Shown: positions 16,137-41,178 of the stretch, piece by piece
Position numbering within the stretch: the stretch's first letter is position 1
How the letters are laid out: every line of letters begins with the position of its first letter
Assembly: GCF_037860755.1 (NCBI RefSeq)
Contig: NZ_JBBEOI010000003.1
Coordinates: 1 to 64,000 of the forward strand
Reading direction: 5' to 3'
DNA from: Aquipuribacter hungaricus
Lineage (GTDB): Bacteria > Actinomycetota > Actinomycetes > Actinomycetales > JBBAYJ01
Length of the DNA stretch: 64,000 nt
Notes under the pieces: model-generated
What the model was told of the DNA's origin: nothing
Databases searched by the model: none
The model's input: only the letters and a program-made list of their open reading frames with translations
Made by a program: the position numbers and the translations under genes

Positions 16137-16775
16137 TCACGGGTCTAGCTCGCCGGTCTGCAGGTCGACGACGCTCAGCCGGGGCGGGCGTGAGGGCGCC
16201 GGTGAGCCTGCACCCTGGGCGGCCAGGACGTCCGCGTCGTACAGCTCAGCTCGTGCACCTCGGGTGGCGTCGGCCGTGTGGCGGGTGTGGCGTCCCTTGG
16301 CGGGCCACGGTTCGTGCCCGTCCTGGCAGTGGCCCTTGGTGCGTGTCCGGGTGCGGTCCTGGAAGGCGGGCAGGCTGTAGCGGTGCCAGTCCTCCATGGC
16401 GTCGCTTGTCAGCTCCTTACCGGCGCGGCGGCGCTGGTCGGCGAGGACGGCGATCTCGTGGACGAGGTGGGGGTGCTGGGGCCAGCAGGGCAGGACGGCG
16501 GTTTCGGCGTCCCAGACGTACTCGGCGTTGAGCCAGGTGACGACCTGCTCGAGCCAGTCCCACACCTGCCGGCGTAGCTGCGGCTGGAGGCAGGAGGCGG
16601 GGTCCCAGGGGCGGGGCAGCTGGGCCAGGTCGCCGAGGGCGTCGATCTGCTCCTTGGTGCCGGTGGCCGCGATGTGCAGTTCCCGGTAGGCCAGGCGCAC
16701 CAGCTGGGCCGGCTGTGGAAAGGGCGCCACCAACGGCCCGGTCGACGACCGGGCGGCTGGGGCCGGGGTGGTCAC
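16137..16775 (-). CDS. Conserved conjugation-operon protein (DUF4913-like)
   Basis: A 212-residue soluble protein, last gene of the minus-strand transfer operon. The central region (about 60-150) has WDWLEQVVTWLNAEYVW, PCWPQHPHLVHEIAVLADQR and HRYSLPAFQDR. The CWPQHPxLVxE pattern recalls DUF4913, a family found beside coupling-protein genes in actinobacterial mobile elements, but the match is from memory. The start is GTG 16775, overlapping the coupling-protein stop (GTGA), with GGAGGGAC upstream. No catalytic motif is visible. It may assist substrate recruitment to the coupling ATPase; that is inference from position. Confidence 0.7.
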   Translation of the reverse strand: MTTPAPAARSSTGPLVAPFPQPAQLVRLAYRELHIAATGTKEQIDALGDLAQLPRPWDPASCLQPQLRRQVWDWLEQVVTWLNAEYVWDAETAVLPCWPQHPHLVHEIAVLADQRRRAGKELTSDAMEDWHRYSLPAFQDRTRTRTKGHCQDGHEPWPAKGRHTRHTADATRGARAELYDADVLAAQGAGSPAPSRPPRLSVVDLQTGELDP

Positions 16776-18220
16776 CTGGGTCCCTCCTCGTGGGTGGTGA
16801 GGCCGTGCCGGCGGGCTTCGGCGAGGGCGGCCACGGCGCGGGCGGAGGCACTGACGGTGCTGCTGCGGGTGGCGCCGACCTGCTCGCGCTGCTCCTGCTG
16901 CTCCTGCAGCAGCCGCCGGCCGGTGCGGCCGTCGATGCACCGGTGCAGGCGGGCGATGATGGGCTTGCCGTTCTCGGCCACCACCAGGGCGCGCCGTTCG
17001 GGTAGCTGGCGGATCTCCTCCGGGCGTAGGACCGCGATGTCGTCGCCGGACACGGTCCGACCGCCCCGCCCGGTCTGCCAGCTGCTGCGCGACACCCGGG
17101 TCATGCCCACCAGGTCGGAGACCTCCTGGTTGAACGCGACGTCCTTGCTGCCGCCGAACATCACGAGGACGTTGGTGAGGCCGAACAGGGCCCGGGCCTC
17201 CTGCTCACCGAAGATGGCCGCGAGCTGCCGCCAGGTCTGCGCGGCGTAGATGAACGAGATCCCGAGGGCCCGCTCGTTGGCCATACGGGTGCGCAGGGTC
17301 GGGATCGGTGCGGTGGAGGGCAGCTCGTCGAGGCAGGCAAGCATCGGCGGGCACAGCCGCGACCAGGGGGACTTGTTGGCCAGGGCCAGGGCGGTGTCCA
17401 GGACGTGCTCGGCCAGGGCCGTCATCAGCGGCGAGGCGGAGGCGTAGGGGTCCTCGCGGCCGAGGAGGTAGATGGTGCCGTGGCGGCGGATGACGTCGGC
17501 GATGTCGGTGCTGGCCCGCCCGGGGCCGGGGGTGCAGCGGGTGCGGATGTCGGCCTGGAAGAACAGGCTCATGGCCTGCTGGACCGTCGTGGTGGTGTTC
17601 CCGGCGGTGCGGTCGTCCCCGTGCAGGGCGCCGTGGAGCAGGCCGTGCCAGAACGGCGCGGCGTGGGGGTGCTCGCGCAGGATTTCCGACGGTTCACTCG
17701 CGCTGCGTGGGTTCGCGACCCAGCGCAGGACGTGCTCCAGGGACCTGCCGGTCAGGGCCGCAGCGTGGAAGAACGCCTGGATCACCTTCGCGGCCTCCGC
17801 GGCGTAGAAGCGGGCGGCGTCGTCACCGCCGCCGGAGCTCACGGCGCCCTTGACGGTGCCGGCGGTGAAGGCCTTCGCGCGGCGCTCGGCCACCATCGGG
17901 TCGACGCAGCCCTCGATCGGGTCCCACACCAGTTCGGGTAGACCGGGGGCCAGACCGAACGGGTCCAGGACGACGCAGGGCCGATCGTCACGGGACCGGG
18001 CGGTGACGCTCAAGAGCAGGTCGTCAACCTTGGTCAGGGTGACCAAGGCGGCACCCGGTGCGTCCAGGAGAGCGGGGGTGAGCAGGTCCAGGGTCTTCCC
18101 CGACCCCTGCGGGCCGATCACGCCGGCGGTGCGGTCCCAAGGGACCCACATCTCACCGCCGCGGGGTTCTTGCGCCCGGCCCAATCGCCAGCCGACCTCC
18201 CGGCAGGCCGCCACCTTCAC
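16772..18220 (-). CDS. VirD4/TraG-type conjugative coupling ATPase (soluble half)
   Basis: A 482-residue ATPase that should link the relaxosome to the secretion channel. Walker A is GPQGSGKT (36-43) and Walker B is MLACLDEL (293-300). The TraM-recognition-like C-terminal region has GISFIYAAQTWRQL, LVGMTRVSR and RALVVAENGKPI. The usual N-terminal membrane helices are missing here: they are encoded by the preceding gene, which overlaps by four bases. The two proteins together equal a normal coupling protein of about 650-700 residues. Ends with a GTGA overlap into the next gene. Confidence 0.92.
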   Translation of the reverse strand: MKVAACREVGWRLGRAQEPRGGEMWVPWDRTAGVIGPQGSGKTLDLLTPALLDAPGAALVTLTKVDDLLLSVTARSRDDRPCVVLDPFGLAPGLPELVWDPIEGCVDPMVAERRAKAFTAGTVKGAVSSGGGDDAARFYAAEAAKVIQAFFHAAALTGRSLEHVLRWVANPRSASEPSEILREHPHAAPFWHGLLHGALHGDDRTAGNTTTTVQQAMSLFFQADIRTRCTPGPGRASTDIADVIRRHGTIYLLGREDPYASASPLMTALAEHVLDTALALANKSPWSRLCPPMLACLDELPSTAPIPTLRTRMANERALGISFIYAAQTWRQLAAIFGEQEARALFGLTNVLVMFGGSKDVAFNQEVSDLVGMTRVSRSSWQTGRGGRTVSGDDIAVLRPEEIRQLPERRALVVAENGKPIIARLHRCIDGRTGRRLLQEQQEQREQVGATRSSTVSASARAVAALAEARRHGLTTHEEGPR

Positions 18221-18819
18221 AGCCGCCCCCCACCCGCACGCGCACCGGCCGTCGAGGCCTCCGCGGGGAACGGTGAGCCGTCATCGGGCAGGGTGGTCGG
18301 TGTCGCCCGGGGTGGTGGCGCCGGCGCGGCTGGGGTCCTGCGGCGGCCGTAGAGATCCGGGCGGATGATGGCCCGGTTGGCGCGCAGCCGTGACCGGCCG
18401 AGCATCTGCTCGACGTCGGCGGTGCTGGCCATGCCCTTCAACCGGCCCGGGCCCCATCTAGCCATGGCCTGCCAGCCGAGCAGCCCCAGCAGGGTGAGCG
18501 CCATCACCTCGGTGACCGCCACGCACGCCCACAGCGTGCCCGCGCCCGCCACCGCCTCGCCCGTCGCGCCGCCCTGCGCAGGCAGCCCCGTGGGGGGTTG
18601 TAGGCCGGCGGCGGCGTCACCGCGGAGCAGAGCCGGCAGGCTGGTGAACAGCTCGGTGCGCGGCGGGAACCGCCACGGCTGCCCGACGGCCACGTTCGCG
18701 ATCGCACGGCCGCAGTGCGCCGCCAGCACGAGCACCATCACCACCGCGACGCTGATCCCGAGAGGTAGCTCCCAGGTCCACGGGTAGGGGTCATGGCGGC
18801 GGGCGCGCTGCATGCTCAT
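18217..18819 (-). CDS. Membrane half of the coupling protein
   Basis: A 200-residue protein with two transmembrane helices (about 18-45 and 98-125) separated by a Pro-rich extracellular loop. The stretch GRLKGMASTADVEQMLG, followed by LRANRAIIRPDLYGRR, is the linker normally found between the membrane anchor and the ATPase of actinobacterial TraG-like proteins. Its stop overlaps the start of the ATPase gene (ATGA). The gene therefore looks like the N-terminal part of a VirD4 protein encoded separately. ATG 18819 is preferred because the in-frame extension to 18855 adds no conserved sequence. Confidence 0.75.
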   Translation of the reverse strand: MSMQRARRHDPYPWTWELPLGISVAVVMVLVLAAHCGRAIANVAVGQPWRFPPRTELFTSLPALLRGDAAAGLQPPTGLPAQGGATGEAVAGAGTLWACVAVTEVMALTLLGLLGWQAMARWGPGRLKGMASTADVEQMLGRSRLRANRAIIRPDLYGRRRTPAAPAPPPRATPTTLPDDGSPFPAEASTAGARAGGGRL

Positions 18820-18909
18820 GCCCCCACAAGTCAGCAGGGCCGGCCCGGCGGTCATCGCCGGGCGGTGCCCGGTGGCGGTAGGCCGGGGGGCTGGGCCGGC
18901 GCCGGTCGG

Positions 18910-20553
18910 TCAGGTGCGGGCGAGGGTGGCGCCGTCGGAGAGGTTGCCGACGCGCCAGATCTCGAACCGGTTGCGCTCGGGTCCGTCGGCGTAGCTGAAG
19001 GTGCCGGTGCCGCTGCGGCGGTCGCGGGCTTCGATGGTGCTGCGGGTGGCGGGGTCGAGGACGAGCATGACGTGCCCGATGCGGTCGGGTCCGAGGTAGG
19101 AGTCCCAGAAGACGAGGTCGCCCGGGCGTTCCTGCCCCAGCTGCACCCGGTGTCCGTTTCCGGCGGCGAGCCAGTCCCGCTGAGCGGCGGCGGTGCGGGG
19201 GGCGCTGATCCCGATCTGAGCCAGGGCGGTCTGGGTGAAGGAGGAGCAGTCCCAGGCGTCGGGGCCGCCGGCGCCGAAGACGTACGGCTCACCGACCTGC
19301 GCCTGGGCCCAGGTGAGCATGGCGACCACCCGCTCGTCGTCGATCGGGGGCAGGAGGGGGTTGCCGAGCGCGGCGGGGTTGGTGGTGCCTGGCCCGCAGT
19401 CGGTGAGGTCGCCGAGCACGGTCCCGCCGCCGTAGGCGTGCGCGTAGGACAAGACGTCGTTGACGTACCAGTCGGCCCGGTTGTAGGCGAACAGGGCCGC
19501 TCGGACGCCGTCTGGGCCCTCGGTGAGCCCGGACACGGTGAGGTAGTGCGCGGCGGAGTGCACGCTGTCGGCGTCGTTGGTGATGTCGGCTCGGCCGTCC
19601 TGGTCGCCGTCCACGCCCATCGCCGTCCAGGTCGCCGGCATGAACTGCATCAGCCCTTGGGCCCCGGCCGACGAGTTGGCGGTGAGCCGGCCGTGGGCGG
19701 TCTCGGCCATGCCGATGCCGGCGAGCACGGTCCACGGGATCTGGTAGCGGTCGGCGGCGGCCCGGTAGAGGGCCTCGACGTCGGCGGGGACTGGGACGGG
19801 TGCGTTGACCAGGGACGCCTTGCGTGGCTGGCCCGCCGGGGGCAGCCCGAAGCCGACACCCCCCTCCCCCGCGTCCCCCGCAGCGGCGGGGGGCGTCTCG
19901 GTGCCCGGGGGGACGAGACCGGCGGCGAGGGTGTTGCTGGGGGGGACCTGGGGGGGCGGGGCGCTCCCGTCCAGGGGGGCGCCGTGCTCGCGCATGAAGG
20001 CGACCGGGTCGATCGCGGTGCCGTTGCGGAGGACCTCGAAGTGCAGGTGGTTGCCGGTGCTGGTGCCGGTGGAGCCCTCCACGCCGAGCCGCTGCCCGGT
20101 GCTGACCTGGGTGCCGACGGTGACGGTGATGCTGGCCAAGTGGGCGTATCGGGTGCTGAGGCCACCGCCGTGGTCGATGTCGACGACGTTGCCGTACGCG
20201 CCGGCGTTCCTGGCGCGGGTGATCGTCCCCGCGGACGCGGCGACGACGGGGCCTGGGCCGGGCAGGGAGACCAGGTCCTGCCCGGTGTGGGTGCGCCACT
20301 CGAGGTGGATGGGGTGGAACTGCCGGCCGAACCCGCGCTTGGACACCGTGTAGGCCTGCTCGAACGGGGCCTGCCACTGCCCGGCACCACCGGCGGGGCC
20401 GCCGCCGGCGGGGGTGCTCCCCGGCCCGTTGCAGGCGACGGTGGCCAGGTGGACGCCGACGGCGGGGGCGGTGACCGTGGTGAGGACCAGGGCCGCCAGC
20501 AGCGGGCCACCGATGAGGCTCGCCAGGATCGCGGCGATGGTGAGCTTGACCAT
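18910..20553 (-). CDS. Three-domain peptidoglycan hydrolase (M23, lytic transglycosylase, NlpC/P60)
   Basis: A 547-residue exported protein combining three wall-cutting domains. An N-terminal hydrophobic helix (about 3-30) should export or anchor it. An M23 endopeptidase-like domain follows (HTGQDL, AGTITRARN, HLHFEV; about 60-180). Next is an SLT-type transglycosylase domain (GMAETAHGRL with the catalytic Glu, AGAQGLMQFMPATW; about 250-350). Last is an NlpC/P60 domain (WDCSSFTQTAL with the Cys, GHVMLVL with the His; about 400-530). It should open peptidoglycan for channel assembly, like VirB1/TcpG proteins. The ATG at 20553 has GAGGGAG 7 nt upstream; an ATG two codons earlier is possible. 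There is a 90-bp gap before the next gene. Confidence 0.92.
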   Translation of the reverse strand: MVKLTIAAILASLIGGPLLAALVLTTVTAPAVGVHLATVACNGPGSTPAGGGPAGGAGQWQAPFEQAYTVSKRGFGRQFHPIHLEWRTHTGQDLVSLPGPGPVVAASAGTITRARNAGAYGNVVDIDHGGGLSTRYAHLASITVTVGTQVSTGQRLGVEGSTGTSTGNHLHFEVLRNGTAIDPVAFMREHGAPLDGSAPPPQVPPSNTLAAGLVPPGTETPPAAAGDAGEGGVGFGLPPAGQPRKASLVNAPVPVPADVEALYRAAADRYQIPWTVLAGIGMAETAHGRLTANSSAGAQGLMQFMPATWTAMGVDGDQDGRADITNDADSVHSAAHYLTVSGLTEGPDGVRAALFAYNRADWYVNDVLSYAHAYGGGTVLGDLTDCGPGTTNPAALGNPLLPPIDDERVVAMLTWAQAQVGEPYVFGAGGPDAWDCSSFTQTALAQIGISAPRTAAAQRDWLAAGNGHRVQLGQERPGDLVFWDSYLGPDRIGHVMLVLDPATRSTIEARDRRSGTGTFSYADGPERNRFEIWRVGNLSDGATLART

Positions 20554-20576
20554 GGCCATCTCCCTCGTCCCGGTCC

Positions 20577-22139
20577 TCAGCCCGCGCCCTGGATGGCGTC
20601 GTTGGTGAACGTCAGCTGCTTCTCCAGGGGGTGCAGGACGGTCTGGACCTTGTACAGCTGCTCCCCGACCCCCCACACGGCGCGGCCCTTGCCGTGGCGG
20701 GCCCAGCCGGTGACGAGGTTGCGGGCGATCGGGCCGAGGGCGAGGAGCCGCTCGAGGTCGTCGCCGACGGCGGCGTCCTGGCCGTGGAGGATCTTGATGT
20801 CGGCCAGGTGCAGCATCTCCTTGGCGATGACGGCGGCCTGGGACCCGGCGGCGCCGGCGGACAGCAGGTCGCCGGGCTTGTGCGCGACGGCGATCTGCAG
20901 GTCCCCGCGCCGGGACAGCCGGAGGTCGGCGTCGAAGCTCTTCACCGCGTCCGGGCCCAGCCGGAGCTGGCGCCATGACTCGTCGCGGACGACCAGGCGC
21001 AGGTCACCGGGCGCGGCGGTCTCCCGCATCGCCCGACCCCAGGAGTTCAGGCACAGCAGGGCGATGCCGACGGCCTCGTCGCCGAGGGGTTCCAGCCGGG
21101 ACAGGCTCAGGGACTGGATCGGGGCGCGCCAGTCGACGTTGATGCTGGTGTGGTCGTCGAACAGACCGGCCAGGGCGCCGGTGACGAGCTGGCCCAGGGC
21201 GTCGCGAAGCAGCCGGGTCTCGTCGAGGAACTGCCTCTCCGAGGCGTACCGGCATTGCGTGATCAGCCGGTCGGTGGGGTTGTCGAGCAGGTGCCACAGC
21301 TGGGGGATGGTGACCTCCACCAGCTGCGAGCCGCCGGCGGCGTAACCGGTGAGCTCCTGCAGGGCGGCGGTGACCACGACCTCGTCGCTGGGCCCGAACG
21401 GCACCAGGCTGTCCCCGATGCGCTGGCTGCCGACCAGGCCCCGGACCAGGGTGAGCCAGCGACCGAAGATCAGCGAGGACCGTCGCTGCGCCTCCACGGC
21501 GTCCAGCTCGGCCCAGCCCTGCCCCAACGGGCCGAAGGCCAGAGGGTTGACACGGGCGGGCAGCCCCGGACCGATAGTGAAGGGCTCCACCCCGACCGCG
21601 TGGCAGAGCTTCTCGTACTCGTCCTTGACGTCGCCGAGGATGAGGGCCCGGTACCCGAAGTCCAGCAGCCGCAGGACCATGGCCTTGACCGTGGCGCTCT
21701 TGCCGACGCCGGGGTTGCCGAAGCAGAAGATGTTGGGGTTGGTGACCTGGATGTCGTCGCGGACCACCCAGCCGAACGGGTCGACGTAGAAGCTGCCGCC
21801 GCTGAGCTGGTCGATGCCCATCCAGGCCCCCGTCGGGGGCAGGCCGGGGGTGGCGATGAACGGCCACAGCACCGGCGCCTGGTCGCTGGTCATCCGCCAC
21901 GTCGACACCGGCGCCGTCGCCGGTGCCCACCCGCGACCGGCCCGCCGAGCGCCACGCCGCCCGGCGTAGCGGAACAGCCGGGCCTCCTTCTCCACGGCGG
22001 TCGGCGTGGGCGCGACGGGCAGGTCGTGCCCGAAGTCGGCGAGCAGCCGACCCACGTCACGGCCCCCGCCGCGGCTCCTGGCCTGTCCCGTGGCCTGCCC
22101 GGTGGCACGGCCGGTGGCACGGCCGAGGACGGCGCTCAC
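20577..22139 (-). CDS. VirB4-like type IV secretion ATPase
   Basis: A 520-residue ATPase. Walker A is GNPGVGKS (141-148), preceded by DDIQVTNPNIFCF and followed by ALILGDVKDEYEKL. Walker B is LRLVVRDES (about 375), and AVAHKPGDL follows. This is the C-terminal ATPase half of a VirB4/TraC-type protein; the N-terminal half corresponds to the SCO6880-like protein encoded just upstream. It would power assembly or substrate transfer in the channel. The first 22 residues contain GRATGRATGQATGQA, from a 12-bp DNA repeat. GTG 22139 overlaps the preceding stop (GTGA). Confidence 0.9.
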   Translation of the reverse strand: MSAVLGRATGRATGQATGQARSRGGGRDVGRLLADFGHDLPVAPTPTAVEKEARLFRYAGRRGARRAGRGWAPATAPVSTWRMTSDQAPVLWPFIATPGLPPTGAWMGIDQLSGGSFYVDPFGWVVRDDIQVTNPNIFCFGNPGVGKSATVKAMVLRLLDFGYRALILGDVKDEYEKLCHAVGVEPFTIGPGLPARVNPLAFGPLGQGWAELDAVEAQRRSSLIFGRWLTLVRGLVGSQRIGDSLVPFGPSDEVVVTAALQELTGYAAGGSQLVEVTIPQLWHLLDNPTDRLITQCRYASERQFLDETRLLRDALGQLVTGALAGLFDDHTSINVDWRAPIQSLSLSRLEPLGDEAVGIALLCLNSWGRAMRETAAPGDLRLVVRDESWRQLRLGPDAVKSFDADLRLSRRGDLQIAVAHKPGDLLSAGAAGSQAAVIAKEMLHLADIKILHGQDAAVGDDLERLLALGPIARNLVTGWARHGKGRAVWGVGEQLYKVQTVLHPLEKQLTFTNDAIQGAG

Positions 22140-23725
22140 GCGTCACCGCGGCGGCTGAGGCTGACGCCGAGCGGCACGGCGGATGCGGCGAAGCCGAGGT
22201 CCTGGGACAGGTCCAGGCGCAGCGGGGCGAAGCCGGCCCGTCGGACCGAAGCGTCGAGGCGTCGACCGAACTCCTCCACGCGGGCGGTGCTCGGCACCGT
22301 GACGGTGCACACCGCGTAGGGGCGGGTCATGGAGTGCCCGCGGGCGAGCTTGCCGTCCAGGCCCCGAGCGCGCAGGGCCTCGGTCCGCTGCCGAGCGCGC
22401 ATCTTCACCCCGGCCTTGGCGCGCAGCTCCTCCCCGAGATCCGCCGACCACTCCCTGGTGGCGCTCTGCCGGTCCGCGGTCGACTGCCGCAGGATCGGGT
22501 AGGCGACCACGAAGCTGCGCCGCTCTCCCGGCTCCGACGGCGTCAGCACCGGCGCCAGGGCGCCCATGACGGCCCCACTGTCGGGCAGCTTGATCGTCGC
22601 GCTGACGGAGCTCCACGCGTCGTGGGTGTAGTGACGGCTCGTCGCCTCGGCGCCGGCCGGGCCGGCCAGCGCCCACGGCACATCGGCCGCGATGCGCGGG
22701 GGGGCGCTCACGTCCCCGACGCCATCGCCGGCGCCCGCAGCTCCGGGATCGGCACCGCCGACGGCCGCTCGGGTGGAGTCGGCCTGGTCCCGGTCGGCCA
22801 GAGCTGCGACGACGCCGGCCCGGTCGCCGGGAGCGAAGCCCGTGCGGCAGGCGAGGGCGAGCTGGGGAGAGGTGAGCCAGGTGACCTCGGTCATGGCCAT
22901 CCCGCCGCGTAGCTGGGCCTCGACCTCGCCCATCAGCCCGTACAGGACCCTGGCTCGACCGTCCAGCCCTCGTCCGCACTGCCTGGCCGCGCGGGTCATG
23001 CGGGTCTCGGGGACCACGATCGTCGCCCAGGACTCCGTCCGGACGGAGGCCTGGGTCAGTGCCTCGCGAAGGTCGTCGTTCACGGCCCTGGCCAGCAGGG
23101 GTCCGTCGGCCCGGCGGTGCCGTTGCATCCACAGATCACGCTCGGCGCCGTCGTCGGGAACGGTGCGGACGGTGAAGAGGACCTCGTCGATGAGTTCGGT
23201 GTGGGAGGCCAGGTCGAGCAGGCCGCCCAGCCCGACGGCCTGGTGAGCCCGTTCCTCCGCGTCGACGAACCCGAGGCCGGGGTGGACGACGGCGGCGGTG
23301 ACCGCCCACGTGCGAGCCGCGTGGTCCTGGACGATCGCGACACGGGACAACGACGCCCCGCGCGGCGGGCCGTCGTGGACCTCGATGCCGTGCAGCGCAC
23401 CCGGCAAGTCGGGGGCGTCCATGGAGCTGGCCCGGCCCATGGCGGCGCGGGACCTGAACTGGGTCCAGCCGGCCACGGTGCCCAGCAGGTAGGACAACGA
23501 GGCCATCAGCCACCCGGTCGCGGGGCGGCCGCGCACCGGCACCACCGTCACCAGCAGCACCAGCAGCCAGGCACCGCTCAGGGCTGCCGCGGCGAGCCAG
23601 GAGCCCGAGCGGACTGCGAAGAACACGGGCAGGCTGGTCGCTACCAGGGTTCCCAGCTGCCAGCCGTTCAGGCCGAAGAACCAGCCGATGCGGTCCCGTG
23701 AGTAGTCGTCGAACACCAGCGCCAT
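22136..23725 (-). CDS. SCO6880-family type IV secretion protein (VirB3/VirB4 N-terminal-like)
   Basis: A 529-residue membrane-associated protein. The N-terminus MALVFDDYSRDRIGWFFGL and two hydrophobic helices (about 20-70) match the PrgI/SCO6880-type proteins that stand in for VirB3 plus the N-terminal part of VirB4 in actinobacterial T4SS. The rest is soluble, with conserved stretches such as HHYT-like RHYTHDAWSS, RRSFVVAYPILRQ and GHSMTRPYAVC. ATG 23725 is preceded by GAGAGGAC. It overlaps the VirB4 gene by four bases, which fits the two acting as one unit at the base of the channel. Confidence 0.88.
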   Translation of the reverse strand: MALVFDDYSRDRIGWFFGLNGWQLGTLVATSLPVFFAVRSGSWLAAAALSGAWLLVLLVTVVPVRGRPATGWLMASLSYLLGTVAGWTQFRSRAAMGRASSMDAPDLPGALHGIEVHDGPPRGASLSRVAIVQDHAARTWAVTAAVVHPGLGFVDAEERAHQAVGLGGLLDLASHTELIDEVLFTVRTVPDDGAERDLWMQRHRRADGPLLARAVNDDLREALTQASVRTESWATIVVPETRMTRAARQCGRGLDGRARVLYGLMGEVEAQLRGGMAMTEVTWLTSPQLALACRTGFAPGDRAGVVAALADRDQADSTRAAVGGADPGAAGAGDGVGDVSAPPRIAADVPWALAGPAGAEATSRHYTHDAWSSVSATIKLPDSGAVMGALAPVLTPSEPGERRSFVVAYPILRQSTADRQSATREWSADLGEELRAKAGVKMRARQRTEALRARGLDGKLARGHSMTRPYAVCTVTVPSTARVEEFGRRLDASVRRAGFAPLRLDLSQDLGFAASAVPLGVSLSRRGDA

Positions 23726-27685: not shown

Positions 27686-28044
27686 GCTGTGTCCGCGCGC
27701 AGGAGCGACTGGCGAAGCTGCAGCCCGGCGCGCAGCTGGGCGGGGCTGAGGCACCCGAGGGCGGCCTTCGCCTGCTGCACCTCACGCAGCAGGGTCACGC
27801 ACCCGTCGAGCTGGCCGATCGCCTCGGCCTCACGTCCGACGATCTCGAACAGCCGCGCGACCTCCGCCGTGGCCTGCTCGTCGTCTTGCTCATGCATCTC
27901 GACCACCTCCACCGCCCTCAGGGCACGCGGGCGGGCCCGGCGGTCACCGTCAGGACCCCCAGTGGTGCCGCGACCAGCGGAGCCGCTAGAACGACCGGCG
28001 CGAGCCTGGGTGCGGTCGGTGGGGCCGGTGCGGTCGGTGCTCAT
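27682..28044 (-). CDS. Small helical protein of the transfer operon
   Basis: A 120-residue protein. The first 45 residues are basic and probably disordered; residues 50-115 are two amphipathic helices (QATAEVARLFEIVGREAEAI, LREVQQAKAALGCLSPAQL). I do not recognise a family. Lies between the sigma-like regulator and the MinD-like protein with ATGA overlaps at both ends, so it is firmly in the operon. Confidence 0.6.
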   Translation of the reverse strand: MSTDRTGPTDRTQARAGRSSGSAGRGTTGGPDGDRRARPRALRAVEVVEMHEQDDEQATAEVARLFEIVGREAEAIGQLDGCVTLLREVQQAKAALGCLSPAQLRAGLQLRQSLLRADTA

Positions 28045-33439: not shown

Positions 33440-33894
33440 GGCTGGGACCTGTACTGCTCGATCGGGCTGGCGGCGGTCGCCGTCAGCGTCTTCGTGGCGG
33501 GCAGGCCAGGCAGTCCGATGTCGCCGAGGCGGGCTCGGCAGGACACGGTGACCTCGACCAGACCGCCGGGAATGAAGCGGGTGGCGTCGACGAGCACCTC
33601 GGGTCCCGACTCGCACGTGATCGACTCCCGGGACAGGGCGACGTTGGCGGCCGTCTCGGCCTGCGCCTGCGCCACCGGCACGCTGCGGGCGAGGGAGGCG
33701 GCGCGGGCGCCGTCGCGGGCCGCGCCGGTGACCTGCAGGCGCGCCTGCTCCACCCGTCCCGCGGCAACCACCAACAGCAAGGCGACGATGATCACCGGCA
33801 CGAGCAGGAGCACCTCCGCAGTGGAGAAACCCGCATCCCCCCGGCATCGGCCGACCGGGGTACGACGCCGGCGGCCTGACGTCACGCGGGTCAC
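33436..33894 (-). CDS. TadE-family pseudopilin
   Basis: A 152-residue protein. A basic head is followed by GDAGFSTAEVLLLVPVIIVALLLVV, the prepilin-peptidase-like cleavage region and hydrophobic helix of TadE proteins, where the E five residues after the Phe is the hallmark glutamate. The C-terminal domain contains two Cys (SITCESG, VSCRARL). Second of three consecutive pseudopilin genes; four-base overlaps on both sides. Confidence 0.85.
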   Translation of the reverse strand: MTRVTSGRRRRTPVGRCRGDAGFSTAEVLLLVPVIIVALLLVVAAGRVEQARLQVTGAARDGARAASLARSVPVAQAQAETAANVALSRESITCESGPEVLVDATRFIPGGLVEVTVSCRARLGDIGLPGLPATKTLTATAASPIEQYRSQP

Positions 33895-34337
33895 GGGGCG
33901 CCCACGAAGCGCTCGACGCTGCTGCTGGCCACGCCGGTCACCCTCAGGTCCACCCCCGGGATCATGGACAGCCCGACCGCCGAGACGGTCGCCGTCGCGG
34001 TCTCAGGAGCCTGGACCACGGTGACTGACCGCAGCTCGACTGCCTGACTGTCGCCCAGGAGCCGGCTCGCGGCGGCCTCCCCAACGGCGGTGGCCTGCCC
34101 AGGAGTCAGGTCGGCCGCAGCAGCTGCGTGTGCGGCTTCCTGTGCGGCCGCGGTGACCAGCTGACGCTCGTGCATCCACAGCCCCACCTGCACCGTGCCC
34201 AGGGTGAGCAGGACCACGAGCGGCGCCATCCCGAGCAGCTCGACGACGCTCGCGCCCGAGTCACCACCCCAACCAGAGCCGCCGAGGCGGCGCCACCGCC
34301 GCGGGCCTCGAGTTCGGAGCGTGGTGCGTGTCGTCAT
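33891..34337 (-). CDS. TadE-family pseudopilin
   Basis: A 148-residue protein with GDSGASVVELLGMAPLVVLLTLGTV, the conserved TadE cleavage-site Glu and hydrophobic helix, then an Ala-rich helix (TAAAQEAAHAAAAADL). ATG 34337 has GAAGGAG 8-9 nt upstream. First of the three pseudopilin genes, 88 bp after the pilin gene. Confidence 0.85.
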   Translation of the reverse strand: MTTRTTLRTRGPRRWRRLGGSGWGGDSGASVVELLGMAPLVVLLTLGTVQVGLWMHERQLVTAAAQEAAHAAAAADLTPGQATAVGEAAASRLLGDSQAVELRSVTVVQAPETATATVSAVGLSMIPGVDLRVTGVASSSVERFVGAP

Positions 34338-34425: not shown

Positions 34426-34683
34426 TTACGGGGTGGTCAGGTCCAGCTCGTTCGCCTTGGTGGTGAACTTGCCGATGACGATGGCGCCGATGGCGACGGC
34501 GGCCCCGACGACCAGGGCGGTGATCAGCAGCCACTCCACGATTGACGCGCCGTCGTCCTTCATCTGGGTCATGCGACGGGTCCGAACGCTCAGCGCGCCC
34601 AGGAGGGCGGGCAGGAGCAAGGTCGCCGTGACCGCCAGGGCCAGGCCCGGCTGGGTGCGGGTGGTACGGGTGGTGGTGCGCAT
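34426..34683 (-). CDS. flp: Flp-type major pilin
   Basis: An 85-residue protein. A cytosolic basic leader carrying an extra hydrophobic stretch (ALAVTATLLLPALLGALSV) is followed by the class IVb prepilin signature MKDDGASIVEWLLITALVV, in which cleavage after Gly and the Glu at +5 are expected, and a short polar tail. The mature pilin would be about 40 residues, as usual for Flp. ATG 34683 has GAGAGGAAC upstream; a start at the internal MTQMKDD would remove the unusual leader helix. Confidence 0.85.
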   Translation of the reverse strand: MRTTTRTTRTQPGLALAVTATLLLPALLGALSVRTRRMTQMKDDGASIVEWLLITALVVGAAVAIGAIVIGKFTTKANELDLTTP

Positions 34684-34749: not shown

Positions 34750-35667
34750 TCAGAGGCTCATGACGGCCGCGAGGGCGGGGTAGGCGATCAAGATCATGTA
34801 GGCGGCGGCGAGCAGGATTTGTCCGAGGACGAGGGTCTGGCTGCGGGCGTTGGCATGGCCGTGCAACTCGATCCGCTGCCGCTCGCGCAGCGCCTCGGCC
34901 TTGGCGCGCAAGGTGGCCTCGGTCTGGGCGCCGGTGGCCTCGACCAGGCTCAGCTGGGATGCAAGCTCAGTGAGCTCGGGCACGGCGATGTCCTCACCGA
35001 GGTGTCCGAGGCCGACCGCCGGGGAGTCACCAGATAGCCGGGCGCTGCTCAGGGCGTCCCGCAGCCGGCGCCACCCGTACCCGGAGCCGACGTGGGACGC
35101 GTCGCGCAGGGCCTCTGCCACCCCGGAGCCGCTTGCGACCCGCATCGACACCAGCTCCAGGTAGGAGGTGAGGGTGGTGACGAAGGTGCGACGCAGCCGC
35201 GCTGCACGGCTGCGGACCCGCAGGTTCGGCACCATCACGGCCGCGGCGACGGCCAGCAGCACGACCCACCCGGCGGCCAGCCACGGCACGCCGAGCACGG
35301 TGGCCGCGGCCAGCAGGGGCAGGGGGGTCAAGACCAGGGCGCCGATCCCGAGCAGGGCCTGCCGGGCGGCGTGGGTCTGCGGCTCCACCCCAAGCAGGTC
35401 CAGGTCCGCGCGCACCGACGCGTCGGTGACCCGGTTCGCCAGCGAGCCGATGTGACGACGCAGCACACTCTCGAAGGCATCGACTCGGCCCGAGAGCCCA
35501 GCCACGGCCACCGGCTGGGACCGCTGGAACATGGCGGCGCTACCGGCTGTCCCCGCGCCCTCGACGCGGCGCACCTGGGCGATGAGGCTCGGGCGGAACC
35601 GCGCCCAGCTGAGCAGCAGCAGCAGACCTGCGCCGAACAGGGCGCCGGCGGTGGCAGCGGCGATCAC
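34750..35667 (-). CDS. tadC: TadC-like pilus platform protein
   Basis: A 305-residue type II secretion F-like protein. N-terminal helix (1-20), a pair of helices (about 100-145), the GspF-type cytosolic core (LELVSMRVASGSGVAEALRD, LTELASQLSLVEATGAQTEATLRAKAEALRERQR) and two C-terminal helices. It would form the inner-membrane platform with TadB. Overlaps TadB by four bases. Confidence 0.9.
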   Translation of the reverse strand: MIAAATAGALFGAGLLLLLSWARFRPSLIAQVRRVEGAGTAGSAAMFQRSQPVAVAGLSGRVDAFESVLRRHIGSLANRVTDASVRADLDLLGVEPQTHAARQALLGIGALVLTPLPLLAAATVLGVPWLAAGWVVLLAVAAAVMVPNLRVRSRAARLRRTFVTTLTSYLELVSMRVASGSGVAEALRDASHVGSGYGWRRLRDALSSARLSGDSPAVGLGHLGEDIAVPELTELASQLSLVEATGAQTEATLRAKAEALRERQRIELHGHANARSQTLVLGQILLAAAYMILIAYPALAAVMSL

Positions 35668-36548
35668 CGGGCGCCGCCGCTGACGGGCTGGCCGCGTTCG
35701 GCTGGGCTGCTGATAAGGAATCGGTCCGGTGTGGCGTACTGCGACAGGCTGCGGATCACGGTGAGACCGGCCGCGAGCAGGGCCACCACCAGGGTCAGGA
35801 CCGCCTGCCCGGTGGCGGTGGCGTAGGGGGCGGCGTAGTCGCGGGCGAACACCGCCATGAGGATCATGACCGCCACGGTGGCGATCATGATCAAGCTGAC
35901 GGCCCGGCGGGTGGAGCGGCGGTCGGACTCCACCGTTCGCCGGGTCTCGACTTCTCGACGCGTGGCCGCAGCCAGCCCCGTCAGGGCCGTCTTCAGCTCG
36001 CGGCCCTGCGCGCGGTAGTTGAGCACCAACGCCGCGATGGCCTGGTCAGCGATCGGGTCGTTCAGCTCGTCCGCGAGCCGGCGCAGCACTACCTCGACGG
36101 GCTCCCGGGCCGCCATCCTGGCCGTGAGCTCCTGCAAGGGCCCCGCGATGGCGGGGTGGGCCCGGGCCGATGCGGCCGGCAACGCCTCCGGCAGGCCCCG
36201 ACTCGTTGCCACGGCGTCGCGGAGGGCCTCCACCCACGAGGCCAGCGCCTCCAGGCGAGCGATGGTGGCGCGCTGCTCCGCCGCGGCTCCGAACATCGCC
36301 GGCCAGACGATCACCGCGGCGCCAGAAGCGACAGCGACGGGCACCCATCGGGTGGCCACCAGCACTACCAGCCCGAGAACAACCCCCACCAGGATGCGGA
36401 CCCCGGCCGGCCCCGACAGCAGCACGCGCAAGCGGACCAGCGGCCCCGGCTGCCCGTCGGGACGCACCGAAGCGGGCACCACGAGCAGCCACAGGGCGGT
36501 GCCGATCACCGCGCCGGCGAGCACGGCCGCCGCCAGCTGCCAGCTCAC
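35664..36548 (-). CDS. tadB: TadB-like pilus platform protein
   Basis: A 294-residue protein with helices at about 5-25, 45-90 and 215-270 and a GspF-type core (LEALASWVEALRDAVATSRGLPEALP, LADELNDPIADQAIAALVL). Start GTG 36548 lies in the stop of TadA (GTGA). A longer upstream frame is Arg/Pro-rich noise. Confidence 0.9.
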   Translation of the reverse strand: MSWQLAAAVLAGAVIGTALWLLVVPASVRPDGQPGPLVRLRVLLSGPAGVRILVGVVLGLVVLVATRWVPVAVASGAAVIVWPAMFGAAAEQRATIARLEALASWVEALRDAVATSRGLPEALPAASARAHPAIAGPLQELTARMAAREPVEVVLRRLADELNDPIADQAIAALVLNYRAQGRELKTALTGLAAATRREVETRRTVESDRRSTRRAVSLIMIATVAVMILMAVFARDYAAPYATATGQAVLTLVVALLAAGLTVIRSLSQYATPDRFLISSPAERGQPVSGGAR

Positions 36549-38002
36549 CAGACACCCCCGCTGCGCAGCTGGTCCGGACCCTCGCCAGGACCAGGGTGCC
36601 GGTCGTCGCCTCGGTGGTCCTCGCCGCGGTAGTCGTCGCCCCGGTAGTCGTCGAGGTGGTGCACGGTGTCCTGCCAACCGCAGGCACGCAGTGCGGCGGT
36701 GCGCTCCGGGGACACCGCGGCCGCGGGGACGGCCAGGCGGTGGCCCGGAGGGGCGTGGAAGACCTCGTCGGTGACGACCTGCTGGCCGTCGAAGGGGCCG
36801 ATCTCAACGATCGAGGACACGTAGTGGGCGGTACGGCCGTCGGGCAGGGCCTCTCGGTGCATGTGCACCACGAAGTCCACCGCGGCGGCGGTGAGCTCCA
36901 GGGCCTCGGTCCGGCTCATCCCGCCCCGAGAGGCGTACAGCGCGATCCGGGACGGGACGGCGCGGGCAGAGCGGGCGTGGATGGTGGTGAAGCCGCCATC
37001 GTTGCCCTGAGTCATCGCCTCGAGCATGTCCTTGATCTCCGGGCCCATCACCTCCCCAACGATGATCCGGTCGGGGTTGATGCGCCGGGACGTCTCGACG
37101 GCGTCGGCCAAGGTGATGGCGCCGCGCCCCTCGGCGTTGGGCTTGCGCTCCTCCAGCGCCAGGCAGTCGGGGTGGGCCACCGGGTCGCGATCGAGGCCGA
37201 GCTCGGGGAAGTGCTCCACGGTCACGATCCGCTCTTCCGGCGGGATCTGCCCCGCCAGAGCTCGGAGCAGGACCGTCTTCCCGGACCGGGTCTGCCCACT
37301 GATCAGAACGTTCATCCGGGCGGCGACCACCGCCTCGAGGAACTTCTGCACCCGGTGGTCGAAGTCACCCATGACGCGCAGGTCGTCGAGGCTGACCTTC
37401 TTACGGTTCGCCAGGCGGATGGACACGAACGGGCGTGGGGAACAGCCCATGCCGCCGACGAGGCGTGACCCGTCGGGCAGGGCCATCTCGATCTTCCAGT
37501 TGGTGACATCCCACGGCTTGGAGGACGTGCCGCCGTACGCGGCAGCGTTCCGCACCCACTCCACCAGTTCTTCGTCGGAGTCCGCGACGGGTGAGCCTGG
37601 ACGCTTCACCCCGTCGATCGAGGTCAGCCAGACCGAGTCGTAGCCGTTGATGTTGATCTCGGAAAGGTTCGGGTCCTCGAGCAACTTCTGCAGCCGACCG
37701 AGTCCGAACAGAACCGCGAACGCCGCGGCCAGGATCGCGTCGTCCTCGCTCTCCGCGGGCAACGGCACCCCGGCGTCGACCTGCTCGTGCCGCCGGTCGG
37801 ACAGGGCCGCGATCAGCAGGGAACGGCCCATCCGACGCTCGTCGTCGTGGCTGAGCTCCGGCTCCCCCGCGTCGAGACGGCGACGCCGCTCTGCGGCCAT
37901 CTGCATGACCACGACGCCACGCAGGCGGCTCACCAGGGCGTGGTCCACCTCGAGGGTCATGCCGCTGTCGGCCTCGTCGGGCCGTGGGCGCGTGGGGTTC
38001 AC
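36545..38002 (-). CDS. tadA: TadA/CpaF pilus-assembly ATPase
   Basis: A 485-residue secretion ATPase. The N-terminal domain ends in LLEDPNLSEININGYDSVW. Walker A is GQTRSGKT (236-243), the Asp box is near VTVEHFPELGLDRD, Walker B is NPDRIIVGEVMGPE, and the His box is GGFTTIHARSA. All ATPase elements are intact. It would drive Flp pilin polymerisation. The tail has DYRGDDYRGEDHRG repeats. GTG start overlaps the CpaE-like gene stop. Confidence 0.95.
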   Translation of the reverse strand: MNPTRPRPDEADSGMTLEVDHALVSRLRGVVVMQMAAERRRRLDAGEPELSHDDERRMGRSLLIAALSDRRHEQVDAGVPLPAESEDDAILAAAFAVLFGLGRLQKLLEDPNLSEININGYDSVWLTSIDGVKRPGSPVADSDEELVEWVRNAAAYGGTSSKPWDVTNWKIEMALPDGSRLVGGMGCSPRPFVSIRLANRKKVSLDDLRVMGDFDHRVQKFLEAVVAARMNVLISGQTRSGKTVLLRALAGQIPPEERIVTVEHFPELGLDRDPVAHPDCLALEERKPNAEGRGAITLADAVETSRRINPDRIIVGEVMGPEIKDMLEAMTQGNDGGFTTIHARSARAVPSRIALYASRGGMSRTEALELTAAAVDFVVHMHREALPDGRTAHYVSSIVEIGPFDGQQVVTDEVFHAPPGHRLAVPAAAVSPERTAALRACGWQDTVHHLDDYRGDDYRGEDHRGDDRHPGPGEGPDQLRSGGVW

Positions 38003-38856
38003 GACTGCACCTGCGGGACGCCGTTGATCGCCTGGGCCTGGCCCACCAAGGTGGCGGCAACATCGCGGGCGGTCTTGAGCAGTGGCGAGCGGTCCAGGCC
38101 GCGCCCGCTCGGCGACATGCCGGTGAGTGCGGCGGCGGTGCGGGGGTCGTGGGCCAGGACCCCGACGACCGGCACGTCCTGCAGGCCGGGCGTCTCCTTG
38201 AGGACGTCACTGACCTGTCGCTGGTGCGCCTTCCGACTGCCGGGGCTGCTCGGATCGTCGACGACCAGGACTGTCACTCGGTCCAGACCCGACCCGGACC
38301 TCGGGGTCTCATTCATCACCCGGGCGGCCACGCCCAGGCCGTGGCGGGCGTGCGCGACCCCTGACACTGTCGGCCTGGTCACCAGCACCACCAGGTCCGC
38401 ACGCTGCAGCACCGCCGCAGCCGCTGACGACCGGGACAGCAGCCGCCCGCAGTCCGCGATCACATCCACCACGCGCGACACCCCTGCGCCGTGGGTCTCG
38501 TCCGGGTCGGTCAGGTTGCTGAGCAGGTCGGCGATCGTGCCCCAGGCGCCGCCCATCGCTTCGGCTTGCTCGGGCGCCGGCGGGCCCACGAGCACCGGGA
38601 GGCCGCCCTCGAGTTGCTGCACGTGGTCCCACACCCGGCGGTGACCTCCGGCGACCCCGCGGCTGGAGGTGGCCAGGGACACCATGCCCAGGCCCTGGAC
38701 CAGGGGGCCGCGGCTGCCAGTGGCCCGCCAGGGCAGGTCCGCCCCGGCGGGGTCGCACTCGGCCAGCAGCACCGGCCGGGGCCACCCCAGGGCCAGCACC
38801 AGGCTCGAGGTCGTGACCCCAGGCGCTCCCTTGTCGGCTACCACCGCGATCAGCAC
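37999..38856 (-). CDS. CpaE/MinD-like protein of the Tad operon
   Basis: A 285-residue SIMIBI-fold protein. The P-loop region VVADKGAPGVTTSSLVLALGW keeps the first Lys but has Val-Thr-Thr in place of Gly-Lys-Thr, as in many actinobacterial CpaE-like proteins. DLVVLVTRPTVSGVAHARHGL and VLVVDDPSSPG fit the fold. In Tad systems it helps place the machine. GTG 38856 is chosen because AGGGGTGAG precedes it; upstream in-frame sequence overlaps the SAF gene. Confidence 0.85.
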   Translation of the reverse strand: MLIAVVADKGAPGVTTSSLVLALGWPRPVLLAECDPAGADLPWRATGSRGPLVQGLGMVSLATSSRGVAGGHRRVWDHVQQLEGGLPVLVGPPAPEQAEAMGGAWGTIADLLSNLTDPDETHGAGVSRVVDVIADCGRLLSRSSAAAAVLQRADLVVLVTRPTVSGVAHARHGLGVAARVMNETPRSGSGLDRVTVLVVDDPSSPGSRKAHQRQVSDVLKETPGLQDVPVVGVLAHDPRTAAALTGMSPSGRGLDRSPLLKTARDVAATLVGQAQAINGVPQVQS

Positions 38857-38860
38857 GAGC

Positions 38861-39634
38861 TCACCCCTGACCTTCGTCGTCGGCGCCGTCAGTGCTGCCG
38901 TCGTTCGTGTCGCCGCTGGCGCGGTCGTCCGTGGTCGAGGCGACAGGAAGCATGGCGAGGGTGGTGCGGCCGGCGGCGGCCGCGGCGGCAACCGCGGGTG
39001 CGTCGTCGCGGTCCACGGCGACGGTGACCAGCCAGGCGCCGGAGGCGTCCGCGGTCACCGACAGCACGAGCGCCTCCGGCACGAGCACCGTGCCAGTCGG
39101 GTCCTGGACCGCGGCGTCAGCCGCCGCGGGGACCTGGACGATCTCCACCAGCCGGTCCGAGGTGAGCTCGGCGGCCGGCAGCTGCCCCGCGCTGAGCGCA
39201 AGGCCGAGAGCGACCTTGCCCTCCCCCGGCGGGGGCGCCGGGTCGACCATGTCGGCGTGCAGCAACGCCCCGGCGGGTATGCGGGTGGTGGCGCTCTGCC
39301 CGAGCAAGAGGCGCGCGTCCGATCCGGCAACTCCCGCGACACCGCCCGAGATCTCCGCCGCGGTCAGGTCCGCGGCACTGATGACGGTCCCCACCGGGAT
39401 GTCCCGCGCGGCGACGACCACCTGGGTCCGGTCGTCCCCCGCCAGGTACAGCGCGGCACCGATCGCCGCGCCAGCCACGATCAGCAGCACGGCGAGCACC
39501 GCACGGCTGCTGGACCGGCCGTGCGGCCGCGGGGCCCGGATCGTCGGTGACGGCCCCGGCGTGCGCGAGCCGCCACCTGCCGACGGTGCCACCCGGGGAC
39601 GGGCCTGGGGCGAGGACGAGGTCGCAGACGACAT
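38861..39634 (-). CDS. CpaB/RcpC-like SAF-domain protein
   Basis: A 257-residue protein: cytosolic Pro/Ser-rich head, one membrane helix (about 45-67), then an SAF domain (VVVAARDIPVGTVISAADLT; SATTRIPAGALLHADMV). A second part carries LVEIVQVP and ALVLSVTADAS. CpaB-type proteins sit in the Tad apparatus; in Gram-positives they probably span the wall region. The tail is acidic. Confidence 0.88.
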   Translation of the reverse strand: MSSATSSSPQARPRVAPSAGGGSRTPGPSPTIRAPRPHGRSSSRAVLAVLLIVAGAAIGAALYLAGDDRTQVVVAARDIPVGTVISAADLTAAEISGGVAGVAGSDARLLLGQSATTRIPAGALLHADMVDPAPPPGEGKVALGLALSAGQLPAAELTSDRLVEIVQVPAAADAAVQDPTGTVLVPEALVLSVTADASGAWLVTVAVDRDDAPAVAAAAAAGRTTLAMLPVASTTDDRASGDTNDGSTDGADDEGQG

Positions 39635-39718: not shown

Positions 39719-40591
39719 TCAGTCGACGGTGGTGACGATGGCCTGGCGCTCGTACACCGGGACGTCCTGCGTGGCGGTCATGGTGAAGGGGTCCAACGTG
39801 CCGCCGCTGCCGCCGCTGCCGACCCAGCTGACGCGCCACACCACCTGAACCTCGGCCTGCTCGTCGGCGTCGGCCTGGCGGTAGGTGTGCGAGCACGACC
39901 CTCGCTCGTAGTCGTCCATCCCCCGGACCCACGCGAAGCCCAAGCCCACGCACTCGGTCCGCTCGCCGACACCGGTCACCCAGGTCGAGGACACCGGCTC
40001 CGCGGTCACCTCCGCCCACACCGAACCCACCGCGGTGCGCTGCGTCAGCGAGTCGCCGTTAGTCACCCACCACCAGGTCGGCAGGTTCACCAGCGCCGGG
40101 TTGCCGTTCGCTCCGTCTGGGTTCACGCCGACGGTTGGGGTGGGCAGCTGCAGCGAGTTCCTGGCCTCCTGGGCCAGCATCGCGGGGGTGACCGCGGGCA
40201 CCCCCGCCGGGCCCGCGCCGTCACCGGCCGGCACCCACAGCACCGTCCGGCCACCACCCGAGGCGGTGCAGTCCCGACTGACGTACGACCCGTCGGTTCG
40301 CTGAACGTTGTCGACACCGCCGTCGTCCGGGGACCGCAGCCCGGCGGCCAAGGCCTGCTCCGGGGTCAGCGCCGTGTACGTGCACGCCGGCGCACCACCT
40401 CCCCCGCCACTACCGGCCTGCACGGCGCCACCACCCTGCGCCTCGGACCCCGGAGACCCTGGTGCTGTCACGACGGTCTCTACCTGGTCGTCAGTGCCAC
40501 GTCGCCCAACCTGAGGCTCAGCAAACGCCGGCGCGATCGGCAGCAAAGCAGTCGACAGCACGACAGCCGCACCGAGCATGAACTTCCGCAT
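39719..40591 (-). CDS. Secreted Tad-locus protein
   Basis: A 290-residue protein with a clear signal peptide (MRKFMLGAAVVLSTALLPIAPAFA). The mature part has paired Cys residues (ACTYTALTP, SRDCTASGG, RTECVGLG, GSCSHTY), a Trp-rich segment (LPTWWWVTNG) and ends near YERQAIVTT. Secreted proteins with a WWW-type segment occur in actinobacterial Tad loci; I do not know a function. Its ATG shares one base with the stop of the lipoprotein gene (TGATG). Confidence 0.7.
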   Translation of the reverse strand: MRKFMLGAAVVLSTALLPIAPAFAEPQVGRRGTDDQVETVVTAPGSPGSEAQGGGAVQAGSGGGGGAPACTYTALTPEQALAAGLRSPDDGGVDNVQRTDGSYVSRDCTASGGGRTVLWVPAGDGAGPAGVPAVTPAMLAQEARNSLQLPTPTVGVNPDGANGNPALVNLPTWWWVTNGDSLTQRTAVGSVWAEVTAEPVSSTWVTGVGERTECVGLGFAWVRGMDDYERGSCSHTYRQADADEQAEVQVVWRVSWVGSGGSGGTLDPFTMTATQDVPVYERQAIVTTVD

Positions 40592-41178
40592 CAGCAGAAC
40601 ACATCCGCCGGTTCGGGCGAGGTGGTCCCGGAGACCTTCCAGGTGCCGTCCACTCGCTGGAGGGTCTGTTCAACCGAGTCCTCGGCCATGCCGATGAGCA
40701 GCACTTCTCCGGTCTCGATGTCTTTCCGAACAGCTCCCCTGGTGTCCTGGCAGTCGTGGACCACCGCTGTGTCGCCGTCGATGGACGCGACGGTCGGGTT
40801 GCGCAGCACCGGCGACCCTTCGGAGATCTCTCCCGCGAGGAAGTCCGCCTTGATGGCGCCGTTGGCCTGTTCGAACTGCGCGCCGGTAGCGACAGGGGCC
40901 AGGTAGTCCTGCGATCGAGGCGGGTCCGCCTGTGCCTGGTCGAGCGCGGCCCAGAAGGCGCGGTAGGCGTCGAGGACGGCCTGCTCATCGGCGGACACCT
41001 CGGCGATGCTGGCGCTGGGGGCGGCGCTGCTCGGCGAGGGGCCCGGGTCCGCGGCGCTAGGGGTGGCGGTGGGGTCCTGGAGATCCAGACCCTCCCCCTG
41101 ATCGGTCGTGCATCCGGCCAGGACGACGGCGAAGCTCAAGGCCACCGCAGCCGTCGCGCAGCTGATGTTCCGCTTCAT
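40591..41178 (-). CDS. Lipoprotein, first gene of the Tad operon
   Basis: A 195-residue protein with a lipoprotein signal (MKRNISCATAAVALSFAVVLAGC, lipobox VLAGC), a Ser/Pro linker, and an NTF2-like domain (ADEQAVLDAYRAFWAALDQAQ to VDGTWKVSG). ATG 41178 has GTAGGGGTCC upstream. The 218-bp gap to the XRE gene (41179-41396) must hold the operon promoter; a TAGAGT element at minus-strand 41218 is only a weak candidate. Confidence 0.85.
   Translation of the reverse strand: MKRNISCATAAVALSFAVVLAGCTTDQGEGLDLQDPTATPSAADPGPSPSSAAPSASIAEVSADEQAVLDAYRAFWAALDQAQADPPRSQDYLAPVATGAQFEQANGAIKADFLAGEISEGSPVLRNPTVASIDGDTAVVHDCQDTRGAVRKDIETGEVLLIGMAEDSVEQTLQRVDGTWKVSGTTSPEPADVFC

Follow-up and report, generated by a model that had tools for sequence, protein, structure and literature searches.

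Published precedent for Tad/Flp pilus genes together with conjugation genes is given by the Cutibacterium acnes linear plasmids p15.1.R1 and pIMPLE-HL096PA1. On these plasmids, SAF-TadZ-TadA-TadB/C-TadE-LysM/BTAD genes adjoin VirB4- and TcpC-like conjugation genes, an Flp-like pilin was detected and appendages were seen (PMC5696575, PMC3666418). The text of PMC5696575 mentions a relaxase zero times, and the C. acnes authors left the role of the pili in conjugation open. The type IV pilus of the IncI plasmid R64 aids mating in liquid (PMC12857230). According to a 2025 review, Gram-positive systems encode no conjugative pili, and the text of Ghinet 2011 on actinobacterial integrative and conjugative elements (ICEs) is without mention of Tad. 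Among open-licence papers, none was found that links Tad to actinobacterial ICEs or reports a near-constant pairing. The locus described here lies in a 64,000-nucleotide stretch of Aquipuribacter hungaricus (contig NZ_JBBEOI010000003.1, positions 1 to 64,000; G000:C3:1-64000), termed the window, from a draft assembly of 547 contigs and 4.3 Mb. The window contains part of an integrated conjugative element. The transfer module of this element is probably a composite of a MobF relaxase, a monoderm SCO6880/VirB4-type type IV secretion system (T4SS) and a co-oriented Tad/Flp pilus.

A conserved module of Tad and type IV secretion genes

Two minus-strand operons were adjacent in the window, at the places given by an initial annotation of the sequence: the T4SS operon from 28865 to 16137 and the Tad operon from 41178 to 29088. 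The gap between them was 222 bases, and a scan of this junction for a promoter or terminator gave nothing. Many neighbouring genes within both operons overlapped by 4 bases. The initial annotation had proposed to compare related elements for co-occurrence of the two operons, and this check was strongly positive. With the VirB4 alignment as query, 80 VirB4 relatives were obtained from genome contigs and 49 of their genomes were searched for TadA and VirB4. TadA matches were listed down to E ~3e-41, so that the co-occurrence counts are minima. A same-strand TadA was located no more than 60 kb upstream of at least 45 of the 74 VirB4 places in these 49 genomes, at distances of 11.8 to 48.7 kb. Among the matches listed, TadA was upstream on the opposite strand at one of the 74 places and downstream at none. 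Chance adjacency was ruled out, as about 1.6 same-strand upstream TadA genes were expected against at least 45 observed.

The fetched flanks showed the full Tad cluster. Upstream DNA was fetched for most of the remaining VirB4 places, and LysM genes at the locus edge were counted as well. The final tally was 52 of 74 places with Tad genes and four with the LysM gene of the Tad operon right before the contig end. Of the other 18, 12 had less than ~14 kb of upstream sequence and were not assessable. Three with long flanks devoid of Tad (G003:C1, G047:C6 and G010:C7) had lost T4SS core genes too. The last three (G010:C1, G018:C83 and G039:C13) had an intact T4SS and a flank of 20-24 kb up to the contig end in which no Tad was present; this flank is shorter than many known Tad-T4SS gaps. 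The Tad module or its LysM gene was thus present in 56 of 59 assessable intact T4SSs, and no intact Tad-less T4SS of this clade was found on a long contig. The pairing is a conserved module and the T4SS clade almost never occurs apart from Tad. Order, strand and presence of Tad are nearly fixed across two actinobacterial orders, and relaxase, T4SS and Tad are inherited as one unit. These comparisons lend good support to a functional link between Tad and the T4SS.

The same gene order as in the window was found on the plasmids pTC1, pNOCA01 and pINDO-MA30-4. The plasmids pA-N39 and pCHL carried close T4SS relatives with no Tad adjacent; a TadA search showed that each of the two has a Tad cluster at another position. 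In addition to Tad and the T4SS module, pCHL (L035) encoded the resistance genes cmx, sul1, qacEdelta1 and aadA2 at 25218-30000. Another T4SS type, TcpC/VirB4, which in some cases includes an FtsK-like translocase, was located near Tad clusters of the LysM kind and oriented away from Tad. Plasmid examples were pKRAD01, pC1c and one from Micrococcus luteus; a further case was found in Janibacter terrae. The replicons pC1c (L210), pSGAir0127 (L211) and pKRAD01 (L032) are linear, and Tad there has its own prepilin peptidase; in the J. terrae case (L199) this peptidase was not found. The dependence is one-sided, since Tad also occurs in the absence of this T4SS. The initial annotation had regarded Tad pili as usually chromosomal, which does not hold here: LysM-type Tad clusters are common on actinobacterial plasmids, with 145 plasmid records matching the LysM protein.

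The Tad cassette was exchanged while the pairing was retained. The window VirB4 shared 72-75% identity with its counterparts in Knoellia, Propionicicella and Janibacter, and the window TadA only 31-33% with theirs. The nearest TadA proteins outside the genome were those of pKRAD01 (47%) and Aeromicrobium (41-42%). The TadA tree comprised two deep clades, and the Tad type switched at least four times on the VirB4 tree; a one-clade constraint was rejected (AU p 1.4e-36). The Tad-type grouping was picked after viewing the TadA tree, not the VirB4 tree. These were quick trees with some long branches, and both the split and the rejection were strong. VirB4 and TadA distances correlated (rho 0.54, 0 of 2000 permutations). 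Simple co-descent of Tad and the T4SS is ruled out by the trees, and Tad cassettes were replaced between T4SS lineages at least four times.

A second full module was present in the same genome at 74.9-110.9 kb of contig C2 (G000:C2:74932-110900). It had the same gene order, with the two upstream proteins followed by Tad, the T4SS and the relaxase. The copies differed in synonymous divergence (dS) by 0.39-0.56 in TadA, TadB, TadC, Flp and TadE and by 0.21-0.46 in most T4SS genes. The ratio of nonsynonymous to synonymous divergence (dN/dS) was 0.17-0.25 for SAF, CpaE, TadA, TadB, TadC, Flp and TadE, 0.41 for LysM and 0.10-0.46 for the T4SS genes. The value for TadG, 0.50, was calculated from an open reading frame (ORF) that also covers part of the second TadE-like gene. 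TadG, LysM, the ParA-like protein and the protein in VirB8 position changed fastest, the ATPases and a 122-aa protein of the T4SS operon slowest. All Tad genes are under purifying selection, and the Tad and T4SS halves are both selected and of broadly similar age. A third TadA/TadB-like locus (G000:C2:123174-123950), with one in-frame TGA, adjoins the second module.

A Tad operon at this location in element-free strains, which the initial annotation had named as speaking against its reading, was not seen in two congeneric genomes. The retrieved 13 kb around their tRNA-Phe carried no Tad or T4SS gene. Members of the window VirB4 family were absent from both genomes, the best match being 30% identical, and there was no close TadA either (best match 37%). 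Tad as a resident chromosomal locus beside the insertion is unsupported, as the congeners are without both modules.

Gene content of the operons and the surrounding element

The Tad operon comprised the following genes, with percent identities referring to the second copy:

40591-41178, minus: lipoprotein, gene 1 of the operon (74% identical, dN/dS 0.18)
39719-40591, minus: secreted protein at the operon head (79% identical, dN/dS 0.20)
38861-39634, minus: CpaB/RcpC-like SAF-domain protein (Pfam SAF 3.7e-12)
37999-38916, minus: CpaE/TadZ-like protein with degenerate P-loop (position, weak ParA-type matches)
36545-38002, minus: TadA/CpaF motor ATPase (Pfam T2SSE 4.2e-27; PDB CpaF 1.4e-37 versus VirB11 1.4e-20)
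35664-36554, minus: TadB platform protein (Pfam T2SSF 1.7e-4)
34750-35667, minus: TadC platform protein (Pfam T2SSF 7e-6)
34426-34683, minus: Flp-type prepilin, cleavage motif DDG/ASIVE (sequence and counterparts)
33891-34337, minus: TadE pseudopilin (Pfam TadE 5.3e-11)
33436-33894, minus: second TadE-like pseudopilin, GFSTAE motif (translation)
32906-33439, minus: TadG-like protein (Pfam TadE 6.4e-7, Tad 2.1e-6)
29088-32909, minus: large LysM-domain membrane protein, last gene of the operon (Pfam LysM 6.5e-5; Tad-adjacent in relatives)

Upstream of the operon, two proteins that belong to the conserved unit of the second copy were encoded at 41889-43942 on the minus strand. The predicted gene set is the expected monoderm complement except for TadV. 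The initial annotation had called the Tad system complete, which is correct for the pilin, TadA, TadB, TadC, CpaE, CpaB and TadE/G and incorrect for the prepilin peptidase. TadB and TadC were encoded as two separate platform genes, as in Tad/Flp (type IVc) systems. The Flp motif of the second copy was DEG/ASIVE; the G/xxxxE prepilin was accompanied by TadE-type pseudopilins, likewise as in Tad/Flp systems. TadA as the VirB11 of the T4SS was discarded as the leading interpretation, because CpaF structures scored best and TadA is surrounded by the full Tad set. A GGDEF diguanylate cyclase domain was located just upstream of the conserved module (44492-45574, minus). Cyclic-di-GMP often controls pili.

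The T4SS operon comprised:

28041-28865, minus: helix-turn-helix (HTH)/sigma-like regulator, gene 1 of the operon (conserved in relatives; HTH weak)
27682-28044, minus: small ORF at the operon head (second copy 75% identical)
26732-27700, minus: ParA/MinD-like protein with degenerate P-loop (hhalign against the CpaE profile: probability 88%, E 3e-6)
26367-26735, minus: small protein with two transmembrane segments, two invariant Cys and VirB2-like size and topology (32-sequence alignment)
25333-26370, minus: membrane protein in VirB8 position (position and topology only; conserved in relatives)
23793-25331, minus: VirB6/TrbL-like membrane protein (Pfam TrbL 8.8e-4, under the cut-off)
22136-23725, minus: SCO6880-family T4SS protein (NCBIfam NF042935 2.4e-118)
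20577-22139, minus: VirB4-type ATPase (Pfam P-loop_TraG; PDB VirB4-like 4ag5 1.3e-9)
18910-20976, minus: VirB1-like wall hydrolase, M23 + SLT + NlpC/P60 (Pfam)
18217-18855, minus: small membrane protein (second copy 75% identical, dN/dS 0.22)
16772-18220, minus: VirD4/TraG coupling protein (Pfam TraG-D_C 3.3e-25)
16137-16784, minus: conserved small protein closing the operon (second copy 85% identical)

The true start of the hydrolase is probably near 20580. The VirB6, VirB8 and VirB2 labels were assigned from position, size and weak matches only. Family searches with the VirB8-position protein returned zero matches, and relatives of the VirB6/TrbL-like protein carry the annotation 'type IV secretion system protein'. 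The AlphaFold model of the 122-aa VirB2-sized protein had a pLDDT of 72, and Foldseek gave no significant PDB match. By size and topology this protein is a VirB2 candidate. The CpaE/MinD-like parts that the initial annotation saw as shared by both operons were supported at the profile level only, by the hhalign match of the ParA/MinD-like protein.

The claim of an integrase and a relaxase on the element was correct, and a tRNA-Phe attachment site (attL) was found in addition:

4619-4692: tRNA-Phe gene (ARAGORN)
4647-4692, plus: attL, the 3' end of tRNA-Phe (ARAGORN, pattern and DNA searches)
4767-5891, minus: tyrosine integrase (Pfam Phage_integrase 1.4e-27)
5891-6163, minus: helix-turn-helix gene of excisionase size beside the integrase (size and position)
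8442-14582, plus: MobF relaxase with RecD-like helicase and DnaG/Toprim primase domains, 2046 aa (Pfam TrwC 2.5e-79, AAA_30, DNAG_N, Toprim_2; NCBIfam MobF above the cut-off)

The fusion of DnaG_N and Toprim domains suggests that the MobF relaxase may itself prime the transferred strand. An exact 46-base copy of attL was detected by pattern and DNA search on another contig (attR, G000:C47:3431-3476, minus), and the right end of the element therefore lies beyond the window. Repeats of the form TTGACAGC...TTGACAGCAAC adjoined both attachment site copies, at window position 4739 and near C47:3590, and fit the pattern of integrase arm sites. The element spans from ~4693 to at least the end of C3 and finishes on C47. 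No overlap between C3 and C47 was found, so the element length is not fixed; with both contigs assigned to the element, it would be at least ~77 kb. The integrase with attL and attR, the latter on a separate contig, corresponds to the site-specific integration of an ICE. Relaxase, coupling protein and VirB4 were all present, as in MobF/T4SS conjugative elements. Proof of an empty site in the congeners was dropped, as collinear similarity to a congener downstream of tRNA-Phe was weak (257 bp, 72%) and tblastn with two C47 ORFs gave no match.

Other features of the window were a second relaxase-like ORF of the MobA/VirD2 type (53424-56045, minus; Pfam Relaxase 9.6e-6) and a tandem repeat with a unit of ~18 bases at 7560-7670 (GCTCCCGTGTCCTCG...). 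Judged by sequence look, glycoside hydrolase/beta-galactosidase-like and sugar-binding ABC transporter-like proteins were encoded at 46347-52300 on the minus strand. They are probably metabolic cargo of the element and had partial homologues elsewhere in the genome. LPxTG adhesins were absent from the sequenced portions of the element.

Proposed role of the Tad pilus in transfer

Tad motors extend and retract Flp fibres, and MobF and VirD4 export relaxase-bound single-stranded DNA. The initial annotation had proposed the Tad pilus as the mating-pair pilus, a reading that is supported in part. The near-constant pairing suggests that the pilus serves as the attachment organelle of the donor and makes the donor-recipient contact. 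CpaB/SAF, CpaE and the LysM protein would seat the pilus in the cell wall. Its Flp fibres, driven out and probably also retracted by TadA with TadB/C, would bind recipients and draw them near. The M23/SLT/NlpC-P60 hydrolase would then open the wall, and a channel of VirD4, VirB4, VirB6 and VirB8 would pass the relaxase-bound single-stranded DNA. Cleavage of Flp may be borrowed from the host's single A24 peptidase, and Tad cassette swaps between T4SS lineages could tune which recipients are bound. For the T4SS clade as a whole, the balance tilts slightly towards Tad/Flp being its conjugative pilus, obligately paired, cassette-exchangeable and independently recruited by a second T4SS type.

Several observations weigh against this reading. 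No TadV prepilin peptidase is encoded in the element; the lone A24 peptidase match in the genome search, C21:19660-19995, was outside it. The missing TadV was not treated as excluding Tad, because the Tad model of PMC6668835 permits a peptidase encoded apart as a loner; MSH loci were all without one. The VirB2-sized protein of the T4SS itself could be a pilin. The plasmids pSP01 and pPA12743CP and a Dermacoccus plasmid, with VirB4 ~39-45% identical and the same T4SS architecture, carried no Tad, and two of these three are typed as MOBF only or as conjugative. A T4SS of this kind therefore has no mechanical need of Tad, which joined one branch of the T4SS family, not all. The pilus also has uses of its own, as Tad+LysM clusters exist without this T4SS; no T4SS gene was annotated in the stretches examined around the Tad clusters of pFRL4 and pFiD188.

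Such standalone clusters, and the many actinobacterial plasmids that bear one, would fit a Tad that is accessory adhesion or biofilm cargo of the host and stands beside the T4SS with no mechanical link, as both gain from dense populations. Tad pili are adhesins in many bacteria, and the Tad loci of the C. acnes plasmids were interpreted as colonisation factors (PMC3666418). Cargo usually varies in content, place and strand, however, and here order, strand and presence are nearly constant. Pairing that survives cassette replacement is hard to explain with neutral cargo, and the one-sided dependence argues in the same direction. Cargo is a rather unlikely explanation. A Tad apparatus that forms part of the route by which DNA or protein is exported, working as a piston or a conduit through the wall instead of an attachment fibre, appears improbable. 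It would be in line with the T4SS having no VirB11 in its set and TadA being a VirB11 relative. It would also resemble PAPI-1, whose transfer needs its type IV pilus under all conditions and whose clear T4SS parts are only VirB4 and VirD4 (PMC12857230). The T4SS of the window nevertheless has VirB6-, VirB8- and VirB1-like parts, and its more distant relatives persist without Tad. A role in DNA uptake or in the recipient state, importing DNA or competing with other elements, is highly improbable: M. luteus transformation requires Flp pili (PMC4322843, as cited in PMC5696575), but competence genes were not noticed on the element, whose Tad is tied to a MobF/VirD4 system for export.

Significance and comparison with known systems

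Near-constant Tad in one actinobacterial T4SS clade provides a concrete candidate answer to the open question of how Gram-positive donors take hold of recipients. If true, a conjugative Tad pilus would overturn the view of pilus-free Gram-positive conjugation, and the pairing could explain the abundance of Tad loci on actinobacterial plasmids. It bears on resistance spread, as pCHL has sul1, cmx and aadA2 together with the module. Cultured hosts of Tad-paired T4SSs exist in Nocardioides, Janibacter, Knoellia and Paenarthrobacter (pTC1).

Among known systems, pTC1 (Paenarthrobacter) and pNOCA01 (Nocardioides) share the Tad-LysM-regulator-T4SS order with the window. Their VirB4 is 54% identical, and the Tad cluster of pNOCA01 has an integrase cassette inside. 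Streptomyces pSP01 and Pseudonocardia pPA12743CP have the same T4SS type of SCO6880, VirB4, coupling protein and MobF, but are plasmids without Tad. PAPI-1, a pathogenicity island of Pseudomonas aeruginosa, is likewise integrated; it carries genes for a type IV filament and VirB4/VirD4 and, according to the literature, uses the filament for transfer. It differs in its Gram-negative host, a non-Tad type IV pilus and few T4SS parts. The R64 thin pilus is similar in that its type IV pilus genes occur together with a full T4SS, whereas the plasmid is Gram-negative, the T4SS Dot/Icm-like and the gene set unrelated. The C. acnes plasmids are, like the window element, actinobacterial mobile replicons with a tad locus beside conjugation genes. 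Their T4SS is of the TcpC/VirB4/FtsK type, whereas the window element combines MobF, VirD4 and an SCO6880-type T4SS that is co-oriented with Tad.

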